A stretch of DNA of 55,232 nt, taken from Candidatus Planktophila sp. GTDB lineage: Bacteria > Actinomycetota > Actinomycetes > Nanopelagicales > Nanopelagicaceae. The notes under the pieces were generated by a model. It made no database searches, was not told the origin of the DNA, and saw only the letters and a program-made list of their open reading frames with translations. The translations under genes were made by a program, and so were the position numbers. Location: NCBI GenBank assembly GCA_017858325.1, contig JAFMBT010000010.1, forward strand, positions 1 through 55,232. Reading direction: 5' to 3'. Shown here piece after piece: positions 19,527-31,072 of this stretch (position 1 is its first letter; every line of letters starts with the position of its first letter).

Positions 19527-20939
19527 TTAACTCTTTTTCGATTCTGCTGCATCAGATGGCGCAGCTGGTCCGTGATCCGTGACACCCTTTACTAATGGCA
19601 AGTCTGGCACAGTAAAAACTTTCTCGTAAGGCTCGTTGATCAGAACGACATTGAAACCTGCGTTCTGAATAATGCTTGCTGCAATTGAGGCACGATAAGC
19701 ACCAGCGCAGTGAACCCAAAAAGTCTTATCGGTAGGTAGCTCACTCATCCGTTCAGCGAGTTCGTGCAAGGGGATATGAGTGGAGTTGGCTATATGCGAG
19801 GCCTCTCGCTCGCTATTACGGCGCACGTCGAGCACACGAATACTGGAATCCGAAAGAATTGCAGGAACATCTTTGAACTGCACGAGTGGAGTAGGGACGA
19901 TGCCACCAATAGTTTTCACATCACCGAGAAAACTTGCCTTCGGGCGATCAATGCCAATTCTTACCAATTCGCGCTGTGCTAAGGCGATCTGCTCTGCTTG
20001 ATCAGAGATCAATACGAGCTCTTTCTCGTAGGGAAAGAGCCATCCCAGATAAGTGGCAAAAGAGCCTGAAACACCAAAGTTAACTGTTCCGGCAAGGTGT
20101 CCCTTTGCCCACTGCTCTTTATCTCGCAGATCAACTACCCAGGTATCGCTAGCAATTGTTTTTAGAAGTTCGTCGGTGCTTAGTCGAGAGAGCTCTGAGA
20201 GATCGATGGGAGCAGCACCCGCATGATTTCGCGGCCTCATGTGCTTGTAGTACGCAGGGAAGTCATCGAGGCCAGCCAAAGTCTGAGTTATAAATTGCTC
20301 AACAGGTAGAAGTAGCGCTGGATTTCTGAGCTTCTCATCTTTGACTGTAGAAGAAGTTCCAGAAGTAGATGTTGCAGCACAGAATGAACCGAAGCCATGC
20401 GTTGGATAAATTGGCGTGGATTCTTCTAACAACTCAGTAACTCGGTGAGCTGATCCATGTTGTAGTCGTGCTAATTCGGCGGCAAAACTATCGCCGAGCA
20501 AATCAGGGCGCCCCGTTGATCCGTGCAGAAGTGATCCTCCAGTGAAAATTCCTATGGGTTTTCCTGACTCATCATGCAAAACATATGAGAGGTGAGTAAA
20601 TGTGTGGCCCGGTGTGTGAAGAGCCTGAATACCAAAGTTACCGATTGCAAATTCATCGAGATCGTGCGCTGCAGTTCGTTTAAACGCAACTGGGTCTTCG
20701 GCGCTTGTTATATAGGTCGCTTGATAATTCTGAGAGAGAACTAACCCACCGCTGACGTAGTCGTTATGCATATGGGTTTCAACTACCGCTCCAAGGGTCA
20801 AGTTGTTTTCACTGAGCACCTGCTCGACCCGGTCGATATCGCGTTGCGGATCTACGACCAACGCTGTTTTTCCATCGTGGGCGATGTAGCCACGATCGCC
20901 AAGTGTGGGGGTATCTAGGCTAATTACGTTGAGTGACAC
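19527..20939 (-). CDS. MBL-fold/rhodanese fusion, persulfide dioxygenase-like
   Basis: A 470-residue fusion: metallo-beta-lactamase domain (about 1-255) plus two rhodanese domains (about 256-360 and 365-455). The GTG start has GGAG five bases upstream. In the MBL part the metal motif is HMHNDY rather than HxHxDH, HTPGHTFTH is present, and the loop reads FTGGSLLHGS where ETHE1-type enzymes have FTGD. The usual aspartate ligand is therefore glycine. The first rhodanese domain lacks a catalytic cysteine; the second has VHCAGAYRAS. It resembles CstB/BlhP-like sulfide detoxification proteins. Whether it is an active dioxygenase is uncertain. Confidence 0.85.
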   Translation of the reverse strand: MSLNVISLDTPTLGDRGYIAHDGKTALVVDPQRDIDRVEQVLSENNLTLGAVVETHMHNDYVSGGLVLSQNYQATYITSAEDPVAFKRTAAHDLDEFAIGNFGIQALHTPGHTFTHLSYVLHDESGKPIGIFTGGSLLHGSTGRPDLLGDSFAAELARLQHGSAHRVTELLEESTPIYPTHGFGSFCAATSTSGTSSTVKDEKLRNPALLLPVEQFITQTLAGLDDFPAYYKHMRPRNHAGAAPIDLSELSRLSTDELLKTIASDTWVVDLRDKEQWAKGHLAGTVNFGVSGSFATYLGWLFPYEKELVLISDQAEQIALAQRELVRIGIDRPKASFLGDVKTIGGIVPTPLVQFKDVPAILSDSSIRVLDVRRNSEREASHIANSTHIPLHELAERMSELPTDKTFWVHCAGAYRASIAASIIQNAGFNVVLINEPYEKVFTVPDLPLVKGVTDHGPAAPSDAAESKKS

Positions 20940-20967: not shown

Positions 20968-20983
20968 ATACCCCTAGGGGTAT
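20968..20983. promoter_or_regulatory. CsoR/CstR-type operator, site 1
   Basis: A perfect 16-bp palindrome, ATACCCCTAGGGGTAT, lies between the leftward MBL-rhodanese gene and the rightward SDR gene. G/C-tract palindromes of this kind are the DNA sites of CsoR-family repressors. It shares the ATACCC-N4-GGGTAT core with the site at 29129-29146, next to a CsoR/CstR-family gene. Confidence 0.75.
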
Positions 20984-21030: not shown

Positions 21031-22083
21031 ATGAGAAAAGTACTTTTGACAGGTGCAGGCGGATATATCGGTAAGCATGTGGCGCTGCAGCTACTTAATA
21101 AAGGGTATGCAGTGCGCGCCTCTGTGCGTGATCTGAAAAGGTCGCAGGAGATTAAAGATGCTCTGATTCCTCATCTTGCTCCTGGAATCGACATTGAGAC
21201 AGCTCTCACCTTTGTGAAGTTGGATTTAGAGAAAGACGCTGGCTGGAGTGAGGCACTTACCGGTATCGATGTATTGCTACATACCGCATCACCTTTTCCA
21301 ATTGCTTCGCCCGAGGATGAAAATGATTTGATTCGCCCAGCCGTTGAAGGAACGCTGCGAGCATTACGGGCGGCCAAGAGCGCTGGAGTAAAACGCGTCG
21401 TCCTCACATCGTCTGTGGCTGCGATTTACGGACATGACCTCCCCGCAGGAGTCTCTGAGTTTGACGAGACTATGTGGACTGATGTTCTGCATCCTGTCGG
21501 CAAGAAGGCATATACAAAGTCAAAGACTTTGGCAGAGCAGGCTGCATGGGATTTCGTGAAGAACGAGGGAAGTGAAATCTCGCTTACAACAATTAACCCT
21601 GTCTTAGTTTTGGGTGTCCCGCTTGACTCAAACTTTGGTTCATCTATATCCATTGTTCAAAGAGTGTTAAAGGGCAAAGACCCAATGTTGCCAGATTTGC
21701 GATTTGCTATTGTTGATGTGAAAGACGTGGCAAAAATGCATGTGGATTGTATTGATGTAAAGGCAACATATGGTCAGCGCATCATCGCATCCGCTGACAC
21801 GCTTTCTTTTGTTGAGATTGCAAAGATCATCAAGTCAGCATTTCCAAAGAGCAATACAAAGACTGGTAAGGCGCCGAACTTCTTAATCAAATTTCTCGCA
21901 AATTTTGACGACGATATCAAGGCTGTTCTGCCCCTGCTTGGAAAACCCATGCTCGTCAGCAATAAGAAGGCCAAGTCACTGCTGGGAATTTCCTTTATTT
22001 CGGCGAAGACTTCGGTGGAAGAGTCGGCAGCTTTCTTAGTGAAGAATCGGATATTAACTTCATCAGATTCTTCAATCAATTAA
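21031..22083 (+). CDS. extended SDR, dihydroflavonol-reductase-like
   Basis: A 350-residue NAD(P)-dependent reductase of the extended short-chain dehydrogenase type. The Rossmann motif TGAGGYIGKH is at residues 7-16, followed by an HTASPF block, a serine-containing VLTSSVAAIYG and the catalytic pair in YTKSKTLAE. Similar proteins reduce aldehydes or ketones; the substrate is unknown. GGAGAGG lies upstream of the ATG. The CsoR/CstR-type operator is 47 bases upstream, so it may share the persulfide response. It could be an ordinary neighbour. Confidence 0.85.
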   Translation: MRKVLLTGAGGYIGKHVALQLLNKGYAVRASVRDLKRSQEIKDALIPHLAPGIDIETALTFVKLDLEKDAGWSEALTGIDVLLHTASPFPIASPEDENDLIRPAVEGTLRALRAAKSAGVKRVVLTSSVAAIYGHDLPAGVSEFDETMWTDVLHPVGKKAYTKSKTLAEQAAWDFVKNEGSEISLTTINPVLVLGVPLDSNFGSSISIVQRVLKGKDPMLPDLRFAIVDVKDVAKMHVDCIDVKATYGQRIIASADTLSFVEIAKIIKSAFPKSNTKTGKAPNFLIKFLANFDDDIKAVLPLLGKPMLVSNKKAKSLLGISFISAKTSVEESAAFLVKNRILTSSDSSIN

Positions 22084-24435: not shown

Positions 24436-27306
<2,871 letters not shown>

Positions 27307-27310
<4 letters not shown>

Positions 27311-27849
27311 TGAGAATCTCTTCTCATAAACCTCACTCCAAACAAGATTGAAAGTATGAGAAATATTGCGGCGGCAATAAGGAATCCAACATTTGAGTAG
27401 TACCTCTCTTGCTCTTCCTCTTGATACGTCACCTCAACGCTAAGATCAGAATCAATTGTGGTCGGGGAAATGGTAGAAAAAGTGATTTCACCGGTGATGG
27501 GATGACCATCGGCTGAGACCACTCGATATGTGAGCAGAAATTCTCCTGCCGGGTATTGCCCGCTTATTGCAGATACAGTGAGAACTTCTCCCAAAATCGT
27601 AACTTCAGATAAAGGATAATTACTACCCGCAGCATCTTCCAAGAAGATTGTATTGATCATCTCGCCTGCTATTGATATGAGCTCTTCGTTAAAGGTAAGA
27701 GAAAAACTCTCAGGTATCTGTTCAAGACTTGCCCCCGCCGCTGGATCCGAGGAAATCAAATCTGAGTGAGCTTGTGCAGAAGGAAAGAGCGAAAAGACCG
27801 AAAGAAGTAGAACGCCAGCAGTAACGATTGCCTTATTCAACAGATTCAA
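27307..27849 (-). CDS. CopC-domain copper-binding membrane protein
   Basis: I place the start at TTG 27849, preceded by GGAGAGAACG and followed directly by a signal peptide (LLNKAIVTAGVLLLSVFSLFPSAQA). Cleavage leaves an N-terminal histidine (HSDLISSDPAAG), the CopC copper ligand. The beta-sandwich has ESFSLTFNEEL and a second conserved histidine in SADGHPITGEITFS. A single C-terminal membrane helix (VGFLIAAAIFLILSILFGVRF) anchors it outside the cell. It overlaps the upstream MFS gene by 17 bases and the AlkD gene by four. Confidence 0.88.
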
Positions 27850-29083
27850 CGTTCTCTCCACTCTTGATTCTGCTTGACCAGACACCGAGTGCAACAACGG
27901 GAATAGAAGCAAAATAACAGAGCCAACCATAGTTAAGTAAACCGATAATCAAGCCCGCGACTGCGCCACCGGCAGCGCCCATCAAGTTCATAGTGAGATC
28001 ACTGGTTCCTTGTGAAGAAGGACGCATCTCATCACTGACTGACTCTGAAAGCAGCGTGGATCCAGCTATCAACGTGCACGACCAACCGATTCCAAGAAGG
28101 AATAGTCCGATACCAAGTTGAATTGCATTGTCTGCACTGGCTGTCCCAGATATAACTGCCGATGTGAGCAGAATTGCTACACCAAGCTGAATAACACGAA
28201 CCGGACCTAACTTGTCAGTGAGGTTTCCGACAATAGGAGAGAAGGCATACATTCCAAGTACGTGGATACTGATAACAAAACCGATTACCTGCAAAGTGAC
28301 ATCGACATGCTTCATATGAACAGGCGTCATCACCATCACAGCCACCATAACAAGGTGCCCAATAGCAATTGATGAGATTGCAAATAACGCCACTGGCTCT
28401 GACTTAATGTATGTGAAAGTTTCTCTAAAAGATTTCTTAATCACGGTGCCGGCAGCACGAGCATCCTTATGCGCAGTTAAATATGGATCGGGGCGGAGAA
28501 AAAGGTAGATAACAACAACGGCTAGTCCTAAGGTGGTGGCGCTGACGATGTATGGGCCAACAAGTGATGGCAATCCGAAGCTCTCTGCAATACGACCAGA
28601 TGGCTCCATTAAATTCGGCCCCGCCACAGCGCCAATAGTTGAACCCCACACGACAAGTGAGAGCTGCTTAGCTCTGTTATCAGGTGTTGCTAAATCAATG
28701 GCGGCAAACCTTGCCTGATAACCCGATGCCGATGCAGCTCCTACAAGAAAAGATCCAAGGAGCATGAGATAGATATTGGAAGTACTGCCACCAGTGATAG
28801 CTAGAAGAGAACCAATGAGTCCAGTGATGAGGCCGGCAGAAAGTGCCAAGCGACGTCCGCCGCGATTGGTGAGTCTGGCAAGTGGAAGTGCCATGGCGGC
28901 TGCACCCAGGACAGAAAATGTCTGTGCCAACCCAGCAAGAGTTTCAGAATCGGTAATCGATGCGACAAGTAACGAACCCGCTGCAACTGTGCCAGCAACA
29001 CCAACCCCGTTAAGAACCTGAGCTGCAACCAGGGTCTTAACGACGCGAGACTGGTGTGCGTCAGTATCGACCGAAGAGGACAT
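27833..29083 (-). CDS. MFS transporter
   Basis: A 416-residue major facilitator with about twelve hydrophobic segments. It has a typical loop 2-3 motif (LARLTNRGGRRLALSAG) and a central hydrophilic linker near residue 210 (LTAHKDARAAGTVIKK). The substrate is unknown; it could be a drug, metabolite or metal-complex exporter. TATGAT six bases before the ATG indicates a leaderless transcript. The CsoR/CstR-type operator is 46-63 bases upstream. It heads the MFS-CopC-AlkD unit. Confidence 0.85.
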   Translation of the reverse strand: MSSSVDTDAHQSRVVKTLVAAQVLNGVGVAGTVAAGSLLVASITDSETLAGLAQTFSVLGAAAMALPLARLTNRGGRRLALSAGLITGLIGSLLAITGGSTSNIYLMLLGSFLVGAASASGYQARFAAIDLATPDNRAKQLSLVVWGSTIGAVAGPNLMEPSGRIAESFGLPSLVGPYIVSATTLGLAVVVIYLFLRPDPYLTAHKDARAAGTVIKKSFRETFTYIKSEPVALFAISSIAIGHLVMVAVMVMTPVHMKHVDVTLQVIGFVISIHVLGMYAFSPIVGNLTDKLGPVRVIQLGVAILLTSAVISGTASADNAIQLGIGLFLLGIGWSCTLIAGSTLLSESVSDEMRPSSQGTSDLTMNLMGAAGGAVAGLIIGLLNYGWLCYFASIPVVALGVWSSRIKSGENVESVE

Positions 29084-29119: not shown

Positions 29120-29150
29120 TTGAACTTGTATACCCTAGGGGGTATATGAT
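29120..29150 (+). promoter_or_regulatory. candidate promoter of the Cys-rich/CstR-like operon
   Basis: TTGAAC (29120-29125) and TATGAT (29145-29150) are 19 bases apart, with the G/C-tract operator occupying the spacer. A repressor bound there would block RNA polymerase. The long spacer lowers confidence in the -35. Confidence 0.45.
29129..29146. promoter_or_regulatory. CsoR/CstR-type operator, site 2
   Basis: TATACCC, four central bases (TAGG), then GGGTATA: perfect seven-base arms. It shares the ATACCC-N4-GGGTAT core with the site at 20968. It sits between the divergent MFS and Cys-rich/regulator units, the expected place for autoregulation by the CsoR/CstR-family protein encoded at 29304. 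Confidence 0.78.
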
Positions 29151-29189
29151 AACTTGATCATAGAGTTTTTTCGACGAAAGGAAGAGTAA

Positions 29190-29303
29190 ATGTGCGCAAG
29201 AGTTACATGTAATAGTTGCAAGAAAGCTACTTGGGATGGATGCGGACAACATATAGAGGAAGCCCTCGCTGGCGTCCCTGAGCAAGATCGTTGCAGCTGC
29301 TAA
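29190..29303 (+). CDS. Cys-rich microprotein A (37 aa)
   Basis: A 37-residue protein with AAGGA seven bases before its ATG and its stop codon immediately followed by the ATG of the regulator gene. Cysteines are at 2, 7, 10, 18, 35 and 37, with a histidine at 21: MCARVTCNSCKK, then TWDGCGQH, then DRCSC. The CxxC and CG-x-H arrangement could bind zinc or another soft metal, or carry sulfur. A paralogue at 30049-30219 keeps the same register, strong evidence that both are real genes. I know of similar unnamed actinobacterial proteins but no assigned function. It is the first gene downstream of operator site 2. Confidence 0.8.
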   Translation: MCARVTCNSCKKATWDGCGQHIEEALAGVPEQDRCSC

Positions 29304-29603
29304 ATGAAGAGCAAGACAGCGATCACTAAAAACTCCCATGCTTTAGAGGATCAAGAGCAACTCGATGCTGTGATCAAGCGCATGAAGCGCGCACAGGGAC
29401 AGGTCGCAGCAGTGGTGCGCATGTTAGAAGAAGGCAGAAGTTGCGAAGAGGTAGTGCACCAGATGGCCGCCGTCGGTAAAGCGGTCAACACCGCTGCCTT
29501 CACGCTCATTTCTGCCAGCTTAAAGGAATGCCTTATTGAAGATGGCAGGGATTTACATCAAACAACAGAGAAACTACAGAAGCTCTTTTTGAGCTTGGCA
29601 TAG
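29304..29603 (+). CDS. CsoR/FrmR-family repressor, CstR-like
   Basis: A 99-residue all-helical repressor of the copper/persulfide-sensing CsoR superfamily (AVIKRMKRAQGQVAAVVRML; LQKLF end). Cysteines are C47 and C76, 29 apart, the same spacing as the ligand pair in CsoR and the dithiol pair in CstR. The copper-ligand histidine four residues before the second cysteine is replaced by serine (S72 in SLKEC). That favours a persulfide sensor (CstR) over a copper sensor, although a CopC gene is nearby. It directly abuts the Cys-rich gene upstream (TAA then ATG). Operator site 2 is 158 bases upstream. Confidence 0.88.
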   Translation: MKSKTAITKNSHALEDQEQLDAVIKRMKRAQGQVAAVVRMLEEGRSCEEVVHQMAAVGKAVNTAAFTLISASLKECLIEDGRDLHQTTEKLQKLFLSLA

Positions 29604-29611
29604 GGAGAGAA

Positions 29612-29995
29612 ATGAAAAAGGTAGTTGCAGCGTTATTTATATCGGCACTTTTCTTGACAGGTTGTTCGTCAACTAGTGCATCAGTGAGCAATCTGGGTGC
29701 CACCGAATTCCTAGAAAAGGCCTCTACCAAGGATGTTGTCCTGATTGACGTGCGCACACCCGGCGAATTTGCCGAGGGTAATATCGTGAATGCGCTTAAT
29801 ATCGATGTTCAATCTTCATCATTTGATTCACAAATCGCACAGCTAGATCCAACAAAGACCTATGCGCTTTATTGCCGAAGCGGCAATAGATCTGGCATCG
29901 CCGCCGAGAAAATGGCAGACGCCGGATTCACAAGTATTTACAACGCCACAGCTGGTTTCACAGAGTTAGCTGCAGCTGGCGCCCCAACCGCCTAA
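29612..29995 (+). CDS. rhodanese-domain lipoprotein
   Basis: A 127-residue exported rhodanese. The signal ends in the lipobox LTGC (lipidated Cys about residue 18), followed by a Ser/Thr linker. The rhodanese domain has VLIDVRTPGEFAEGNI and the active loop YCRSGNRSG (Cys about residue 88). It would handle sulfane sulfur on the outer face of the membrane. GGGAGA precedes the ATG, eight bases after the regulator stop. Confidence 0.93.
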   Translation: MKKVVAALFISALFLTGCSSTSASVSNLGATEFLEKASTKDVVLIDVRTPGEFAEGNIVNALNIDVQSSSFDSQIAQLDPTKTYALYCRSGNRSGIAAEKMADAGFTSIYNATAGFTELAAAGAPTA

Positions 29996-30048
29996 CTAAA
30001 TAACTTCAATTGACGAGAGCCAACCCAAAGAGATAACTGAGGAAAACT

Positions 30049-30219
30049 ATGTGTAGTAGAACTACTTGTCGTAAGTGCAGTAAGCCAACATGGTCAGGAT
30101 GTGGAAACCATGTCGAGATTGCGCTGAAGGGCGTTGCTAAGAAAGATCGTTGCCAGGGACATGCAAATGATCCTAAGGAGCCAGGATTACTTAGCAGACT
30201 CTTTGGTGGAAAGAAGTAG
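30049..30219 (+). CDS. Cys-rich microprotein B (56 aa), paralogue of A
   Basis: A 56-residue protein with TGAGGA six bases before the ATG. It aligns without gaps to microprotein A over residues 1-35. C2, R4, T6, C7, C10, K12, T14, W15, G17, C18, G19, H21, E23, A25, L26, G28, V29, D33, R34 and C35 are identical. It differs in a C-terminal extension with another histidine (QGHAND) and an amphipathic basic tail (LLSRLFGGKK) that may touch membrane or nucleic acid. It lies after the rhodanese lipoprotein gene. Function is unknown. Confidence 0.8.
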   Translation: MCSRTTCRKCSKPTWSGCGNHVEIALKGVAKKDRCQGHANDPKEPGLLSRLFGGKK

Positions 30220-30370
30220 CAGCCAAGTTACCGCTTTGGATATGGATCAGGTACGAAAAGAAATTTCTGCCGACCTGGGATAGCCTTAAGACATAGCAAT
30301 TACCGTTGATAGGAAAACAGGGATCCTTGTTGGGATTATTGCGGTTCTCGCATTAGGAATTGTCTTTCTC

Positions 30371-30877
30371 TTGGCTGGCAATTCAGGCGCACCGATGGAT
30401 CATTCAGGTCACGGCTCAACAAGTGAAGAGAAATCTTCTAGTCAGTATTCAGCGGATGAAATAATGTTTGCGCAGATGATGATTCCACACCATGAACAAG
30501 CCGTGACTATGTCAGAGCTCGCATTAACCAACACCACAACACCTGAAATTGTGGCACTTGCCATCGCTATTCGTGATGCGCAGGCCCCTGAAATTATCCA
30601 GATGCAAAGTTGGATTGATGGCAAGAGTGAGTCACATATGCACGATATGGAGATGGGCGGGATGCTGACTGCAGACGAACTCGAAACTCTCGCATCGCTC
30701 AAAGGTGCCGCATTTGATCAAATGTTTCTGACGGCCATGATTGCCCACCATGAAGGTGCTCTTGATATGGCCGACATGATTAATGATTCATCCAATAGCG
30801 AAGTAAAAACATTAGCCGCCAATATCGTTACGAGGCAGAGCGCTGAGATTGAGGCTATGAAAGCGCTGCTGAAGTAG
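30371..30877 (+). CDS. DUF305 protein
   Basis: From TTG 30371 the product is 168 residues: a His/Met-rich linker (DHSGHGSTSEEKSS), then DUF305 with MIPHHEQAVTMSELAL and MIAHHEGALDMADMI. DUF305 proteins are exported ferritin-like four-helix proteins, often near copper genes. The frame stays open upstream to a stop at 30287-30289. Codons 30320-30376 encode a membrane helix (GILVGIIAVLALGIVFLLAG) that a TTG 30371 start would cut off. No ATG, GTG or TTG lies in frame before it, so the real start is probably non-canonical (for example ATT 30299), or a base is wrong. Confidence 0.8.
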   Translation: MAGNSGAPMDHSGHGSTSEEKSSSQYSADEIMFAQMMIPHHEQAVTMSELALTNTTTPEIVALAIAIRDAQAPEIIQMQSWIDGKSESHMHDMEMGGMLTADELETLASLKGAAFDQMFLTAMIAHHEGALDMADMINDSSNSEVKTLAANIVTRQSAEIEAMKALLK

Positions 30878-30921
30878 CCTCGTTCGCCATTACTCAGGAT
30901 CTGGATTAAGATAAGCCTCAA

Positions 30922-31041
30922 GTTATCGGGGTCGGTGTAATTCCGAACCGGCGGTTAAAGTCCGCGACCCGTTGGCATCCAGCTAACGGTGGACTCAGTG
31001 TAATTCTGAGACCGACGGTTAAAGTCCGGATGAGAGATAAC
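30922..31041 (+). ncRNA. FMN riboswitch (RFN element)
   Basis: The conserved RFN core is present: ATCGGGGTCGGTGTAATTCC, CCGGCGGTTAAAGTCCGCGA, CAGTGTAATTCTGAGACCGA and GGTTAAAGTCCGGATGAGAG. Closing stem P1 is GTTATC (30922-30927) with GATAAC (31036-31041). It senses flavin mononucleotide and controls the rib operon 114 bases downstream. Confidence 0.95.
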
Positions 31042-31043
31042 TA

Positions 31044-31072
31044 ACGAACAGCGTTCTGCTCGTGTCATTTTT
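31044..31072 (+). terminator. riboswitch expression-platform terminator
   Basis: ACGAACAG pairs with CTGCTCGT (one A-C mismatch) around CGTT, followed by GTCATTTTT. It comes directly after P1, the expected place for FMN-dependent transcription termination. The short U-run makes it moderate in strength. Confidence 0.55.

Follow-up and report, generated by a model that had tools for sequence, protein, structure and literature searches.

A candidate CstR-type sulfane-sulfur response regulon with conserved Cys-rich microproteins in Candidatus Planktophila

The persulfide circuit of Streptomyces coelicolor comprises four genes, encoding the CsoR-family repressor ScCsoR, the persulfide dioxygenase (PDO) ScPDO (SCO0618), a rhodanese and a sulfite transporter; the accessible part of the report gives ATACCN6GGTAT as the ScCsoR operator, mentions no microprotein, and names repressor, rhodanese, dioxygenase and sulfite exporter as the components of persulfide regulons so far (PMC7533328). 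CstR of Staphylococcus aureus and Enterococcus (cst operon) is likewise a CsoR-family sulfur sensor. Its hallmark is two Cys without the copper-ligand His, and we know of no microproteins at the cst operon of these bacteria. The copper regulators CsoR and RicR belong to the same Pfam family and have a similar operator. Here we describe a stretch of 55,232 nucleotides from Candidatus Planktophila sp. (assembly GCA_017858325.1, contig JAFMBT010000010.1, forward strand; the whole stretch is hereafter the window), in which a repressor of this family and a rhodanese are encoded between two tiny Cys-rich proteins, microprotein A (mpA) and microprotein B (mpB) (Table 1).

The regulator and its circuit are of a known kind, that of the CstR/ScCsoR-type persulfide regulons, to which the microprotein adds a new, conserved component. 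The best explanation of the whole, which we hold to be reasonably probable, is that these genes form an actinobacterial regulon of CstR type that responds to sulfane sulfur and includes the microproteins. A tiny, highly conserved family stands here under the same kind of operator as the known persulfide regulons; if the microprotein carries or buffers sulfane sulfur, it would be a missing part of actinobacterial reactive-sulfur handling.

Regulator and operators

An earlier note on this DNA had described the gene order mpA, CsoR, rhodanese, mpB and DUF305 behind a palindrome, and the open reading frames (ORFs) and the palindrome are as it claimed. The regulator matches PF02583 (CsoR/RcnR family, DUF156) at 74.2 bits against a cut-off of 22.8 and is the sole match to this family in the 1.34-Mb genome; its scores stay below the NCBIfam cut-offs for FrmR (34.6 against 133 bits), RcnR (42.7 against 138 bits) and RicR (39.6 against 175 bits). 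Cys47 and Cys76 are 29 residues apart, as are Cys37 and Cys66 of ScCsoR (PMC7533328), and Ser72 stands at the position of the copper-ligand His, both as read in the earlier note. Unlike copper CsoR and RicR, the regulator lacks this His and the Tyr preceding it, so that Ser interrupts the Cys-His-Cys Cu(I) ligand set of CsoR and the two Cys without the ligand His give the residue pattern of a CstR-type protein.

The same pattern is found in regulators encoded near microproteins elsewhere. Among 59 such proteins above 25 bits (the window's own included, copies of the window omitted, many of them closely akin), both Cys are always present and the His position holds Ser (26), Ala (19), Gly (11), Asn (2) or Thr (1), never His. 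The 28 microprotein-linked regulators of the phylum sample described below, a set that partly overlaps with the 59 (G039, for example, is in both, and 2 microprotein sequences are common), have Gly (21), Ala (4), Ser (2) or Asn (1) at this position, again without a single His. By contrast, His occupies it in 30 of 30 control proteins, which are the best-scoring PF02583 loci, a choice that favours the copper type. The microprotein motif is absent from all 30 control loci.

Scanning the window for the published ScCsoR operator, with one mismatch allowed, gave two exact sites, at 29130 and 20968. This count is not significant as evidence by itself, since 8 of 100 window shuffles contained at least two matches (mean 0.57); the argument from the operators therefore rests on their placement and on the comparison across the phylum. 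The genome holds four exact places, versus one for the pattern read backwards, and only the sites at 29130 and 20968 have C/G tracts. At the former, TATACCCTAGGGGGTAT is identical in L010, a near relative that served as reference for codon and flank comparisons, and the flanks differ. This operator lies 44 bp before mpA and 46 bp from the start of a divergent MFS gene. Between the second operator and the start of the gene downstream of it are 28 bp; the product of this gene matches Lactamase_B (1.5e-6) and, in two stretches, Rhodanese (6.2e-18). A metallo-beta-lactamase (MBL) fold with rhodanese is the make-up of type III persulfide dioxygenases (PMC7533328), and the product is thus a putative enzyme of this type. 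Both operators accordingly stand at rhodanese or sulfur-oxidation genes, as expected of a CstR-type system. Given two operators with C/G tracts and just one PF02583 match in the genome, both units are most likely under the same regulator. An epimerase-like (NAD-dependent) gene (21031-22083), which diverges from the dioxygenase gene and lies 47 bp from the second operator, might belong to the regulon.

Sensing-site residues, the second operator, the sulfur neighbourhoods across the phylum and the match to the ScCsoR operator together support persulfide rather than copper sensing, in agreement with the earlier note. We consider it very probable that the regulon is of persulfide type, with a persulfide as the presumed effector.

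Table 1 Features of the unit, the second operator and the divergent genes (positions in the window)
Feature	Position	Strand	Basis or remark
CsoR/CstR-type operator-like palindrome ATACCCTAGGGGGTAT	29130..29145	+	Exact ATACCN6GGTAT match
mpA, 37 aa, MC-x4-C-x2-C...GCGxH...RCSC	29190..29303	+	
CsoR-family repressor, 99 aa, Cys47/Ser72/Cys76	29304..29603	+	Pfam Trns_repr_metal 1.1e-20
Rhodanese, single-domain, likely lipoprotein	29612..29995	+	Pfam 4.3e-16
mpB, 56 aa, same core with C-terminal GLLSRLFG tail	30049..30219	+	
Remnant, 44 bp, 3' end of the L010 thioredoxin-like gene	30224..30267	+	blastn 90.9% over 44 bp
DUF305/CopM-like protein	30293..30877	+	DUF305 match 1.6e-39
Second operator, perfect palindrome ATACCCCTAGGGGTAT	20968..20983	.	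Exact match
MBL fold with two rhodanese stretches, 470 aa, PDO-like	19527..20939	-	
CopC-domain gene	27307-27930	-	Divergent from the operon
CopC gene and MFS transporter	27307-29083	-	Divergent, common intergenic operator region

The microprotein family and its neighbourhood

mpA and mpB are paralogues with 58% identity over 36 aa. Relative to L010, all 11 codon differences of mpA are synonymous (0 non-synonymous), and mpB has 17 synonymous and 2 non-synonymous ones; because these differences are nearly all synonymous, both behave as real genes under strong purifying selection. The start MC...C..C is present in all 143 + 65 microprotein hits. An alignment anchored on a pattern that itself demands Cys2, Cys7 and Cys10 fitted 129 of 139 and 64 of 65 rows (193 of 204; 202 distinct sequences), and Gly17, Cys18, Gly19, His21 and Cys35 are invariant in all 193. 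Cys37 or His38 supplies the last ligand, with both in one row and neither in another, which has His39 instead. Ten of the 11 rows that did not fit end directly in RCxC, and in the remaining one, L007, the initial MC is doubled. An extra microprotein type, which ends in a [DE]LSxWxP tail, lies directly 3' of the mpB type in L012, L018, L029, L030, L034, L035 and L038. In L102 (1501-2040), behind a near-exact operator, the microprotein frame continues stop-free into a gene for what we take to be a TusE/DsrC-like sulfur carrier. We dropped this fusion lead and do not use it as evidence, as a Shine-Dalgarno-like sequence precedes the TusE/DsrC-like gene itself and a family search gave the same genome only.

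Across 396 evenly sampled actinobacterial genomes (E<=1e-6, own genome included), the microprotein was found in 64, about one in six, and among relatives in 32 of 60. A PDO match was found in 128 of the 396. Scoring covered at most 16 first-look candidates per genome for the microprotein and at most 4 for PDO, so that 64/396 and 128/396 are possibly lower bounds, and the test of their co-occurrence carries the same limit: PDO was found in 37 of the 64 genomes that gave a microprotein match versus 91 of the 332 that gave none (odds ratio 3.6, Fisher p 4e-6, ignoring kinship). In family f19 (6-11 Mb, probably Streptomyces), the microprotein was not found in any of 15 genomes, with nearly all candidates scored; nine of these have a PDO match, which indicates that the pathway can run without the microprotein. 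The family may have been overlooked for two reasons: ORFs of 37-60 codons are often passed over by gene callers, and none of the searched genomes of f19, which represents the type of host used to study the circuit, yielded it. Titles and abstract openings of the open-access literature gave no description of it.

A scan of GTDB contigs gave at least 570 microprotein-encoding stretches. A tblastn search of plasmids (E up to 10) returned 81 records, nearly all from actinobacterial genera; among the 30 matches listed, two are non-actinobacterial (E 5 and 9). Of 40 plasmid copies listed, 38 have no annotated gene, in a gene table that is incomplete; Rhodococcus jostii RHA1 has a microprotein gene on pRHL3. 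Matches were also obtained in four IMG/VR viral loci and one unannotated phage record (E 8e-11). L077, a microprotein locus in a metagenome-assembled genome, is labelled Acidobacteria; the phylum is the record label only, and misbinning is possible. Searches of Pfam and NCBIfam with 103 members gave nothing significant (best E 0.003 and 0.002, to assorted families), nor did a profile search of the PDB (best E 0.17).

The neighbourhood of microprotein, CsoR and rhodanese proposed in the earlier note proved to be conserved. We compared regions of 3.3 to 10.2 kb from 63 of the 64 microprotein genomes (own omitted, one place each) with 36 control regions from these genomes at a distance of 35 kb, hand-picked where the contig left room, although a few more of the 63 would also have had room. 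csoR was present in 28/63 microprotein regions versus 0/36 controls, PDO-like genes in 13/63 versus 0/36, DUF302 in 12/63 versus 0/36, an FAD oxidoreductase in 11/63 versus 0/36 and TauE in 11/63 versus 1/36. Any gene of a sulfur set of nine query proteins was found in 31/63 versus 1/36, and the exact operator in 38/63 versus 0/36. Among 150 of the 200 neighbour ORFs, drawn at random, rhodanese is the commonest Pfam family (12) and PF02583 the second (8); both are missing from the 25 of 105 families visible for comparison among all 106 control ORFs. In a set of 80 loci from the contig scan, many ended by contig edges, 46 contain csoR. In 22, rhodanese or the FAD oxidoreductase comes after csoR on the same strand, and in 32 the gene directly 5' of the microprotein is that of the FAD protein or of a rhodanese that matches the C-terminal part of the FAD protein. 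The FAD protein, labelled FAD-dependent oxidoreductase in the records, may be akin to CoA-disulfide reductase.

The operator stands close to the microprotein genes themselves. With at most one mismatch, it lies within 200 bp upstream of 25 of 65 microprotein genes (exact in 21), and in 0.11% of 1800 control segments. In 11 genes, from families f52, f61, f67 and f89 and none of the window's class, an exact operator ends within the start codon, its final two bases being the A and T of the ATG; six of these 11 lie in regions without a recognised sulfur-set gene, where the operator is the sole sign. Because the operator overlaps the ATG, the mRNA of these 11 genes is probably leaderless and its repression tight. 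We are highly confident that the microproteins are members of the regulon, probably under direct control.

Several observations weigh against the overall explanation. The ScCsoR operator is itself reported to resemble CsoR and RicR sites (PMC7533328), and the operator is therefore no proof of the effector. No recognised sulfur-set gene was found in 32/63 microprotein regions; 13 of these 32 have the operator, which leaves 19/63 with neither sign. The microprotein gave no match in 91 of the 128 PDO genomes and is thus not required for the pathway. The window itself lacks the FAD oxidoreductase and thioredoxin genes found in the cluster of relatives, and its genome has no good relative of the cluster FAD protein (best 32% over ~130 residues). 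The structural model of the microprotein is of moderate quality and has no fold match, and copper-type genes adjoin the unit, as discussed below.

Microprotein chemistry and alternative explanations

AlphaFold2 (103 rows) gave a model with a pLDDT of 77.6 overall, 81-86 over residues 1-40, and a pTM of 0.47. At moderate confidence, the model predicts a pair of short strands and a pair of short helices, and neither Foldseek nor VIA-align found a solved fold matching this model. The case for metal binding is therefore one of sequence pattern. Exchange of Cys and His at a single position is typical of a metal ligand, most often of zinc, and methionine aminopeptidase usually removes the start Met before Cys. 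The conserved Cys and His, together with the Cys-His swap, suggest a metal-stabilised thiol protein. Small zinc-ribbon, HMA-like and YyzF-like proteins share with the microprotein a CxxCGK knuckle and further Cys/His ligands; the microprotein differs in having no significant Pfam, NCBIfam or PDB match. Against the HMA family PF00403, mpA scores 15.2 bits, below the cut-off of 24.8 (E 0.028), and 7 of 103 members match at E<=0.1.

In the mechanism that we propose, the Cys47/Ser72/Cys76 repressor would occupy ATACCC-N4-GGGTAT at 29130 and 20968 in unstressed cells. A persulfide or polysulfide would modify Cys47 (with Cys76) and take the repressor off the DNA, so that the direction of regulation would be derepression, with expression of the mpA-csoR-rhodanese-mpB unit and of the MBL-rhodanese dioxygenase. 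The enzymes would then transfer the sulfane sulfur and carry out its oxidation to sulfite, and the microproteins, as small thiol proteins stabilised by a metal (probably zinc), would accept or buffer sulfane sulfur, perhaps on Cys2, the N-terminal residue once the start Met is removed.

As in the earlier note, we hypothesize that the microprotein is a sulfur carrier or a metal buffer. Handling of sulfane sulfur, by acceptance or buffering, is our leading suggestion for its role, though a tentative one. We favour it over a plain metal buffer, a possible but less likely alternative in which the persulfide regulon is the same and the microproteins, like metallothioneins, would guard metal sites under sulfide stress as zinc or soft-metal buffers free of sulfur. 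The conserved C7/C10/C18/H21/C35, the Cys37/His38 swap typical of a metal site and weak zinc-finger and HMA matches (best E 0.03) agree with such a buffer; the neighbours, however, are sulfur enzymes, and metallothionein-3 is reported to hold sulfane sulfur too (PMC12618007). Since Cys-rich metal proteins can hold sulfane sulfur, the two roles are compatible. A stronger version of sulfane-sulfur handling, possible but less likely, would make the microproteins a new class of carrier in Actinomycetota, a metal-stapled mini-domain with a conserved N-terminal Cys. Under direct control of the persulfide-sensing repressor, it would pass persulfide from one partner to another, the partners being rhodanese, CoA-disulfide-reductase-like and dioxygenase proteins.

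Also favoured less than sulfane-sulfur handling, and improbable in our view, is a regulatory role, in which the microproteins would be adaptors or anti-repressors of CsoR-family proteins, or mpA a leader coupled to csoR translation. The mpA stop directly abuts the csoR start, with zero gap, in the window and in L010; but mpA precedes csoR on one strand in just 8 of the 80 contig-scan loci, 35 of 63 phylum regions have no recognised csoR, and conservation is at the amino acid rather than the codon level. Least probable is a copper response of a CsoR-family repressor with a CopM-like DUF305 protein and a divergent CopC gene, which we rejected on the regulator residues and gene neighbourhoods. 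Both genes do adjoin the unit, DUF305 scores 89.9 against a CopM cut-off of 90, and CopC occurs in 3/80 contig-scan loci, one of them the close relative L010. Yet CopC was found in 0/63 phylum regions and 1/36 controls, the ligand His present in every control regulator is Ser here, and the second operator stands at a PDO-like gene. The DUF305 gene, which the earlier note had counted in the unit, occurs in 0/63 phylum regions and 1/80 contig-scan loci; it therefore looks like an incidental neighbour, and we rejected it as a member because its presence is not general.

Flanking genes and minor observations

The window rhodanese differs from that of the ScCsoR circuit in being lipoprotein-like: its N-terminus FLTGC reads as lipobox-like, with a weak LPAM_1 match (E 0.09). 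The unit also has no TauE, of which three matches lie elsewhere in the genome. In L010, a thioredoxin-like gene (phmmer match to a thioredoxin query) and a second gene, read from its translation as isochorismatase-like, sit between mpB and DUF305. The DUF305 gene of the window has no ATG, GTG or TTG at its proper start, where ATA at 30293 replaces the ATG of L010; either it has a rare start, or it is translated from an internal TTG at 30371, or it is decaying. Between 28900 and 31200, no consensus promoter or terminator was found on the + strand, the numbers found being within those of shuffles. The divergent MFS gene may be co-regulated through the shared operator region.

Outside the sulfur unit, an FMN riboswitch (RF00050, 107 bits, 30918-31045) precedes genes from 31155 that read from the sequence as riboflavin-type. 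A KatG catalase-peroxidase (24451-26613, 1188 bits) is encoded near the sulfur-stress genes.

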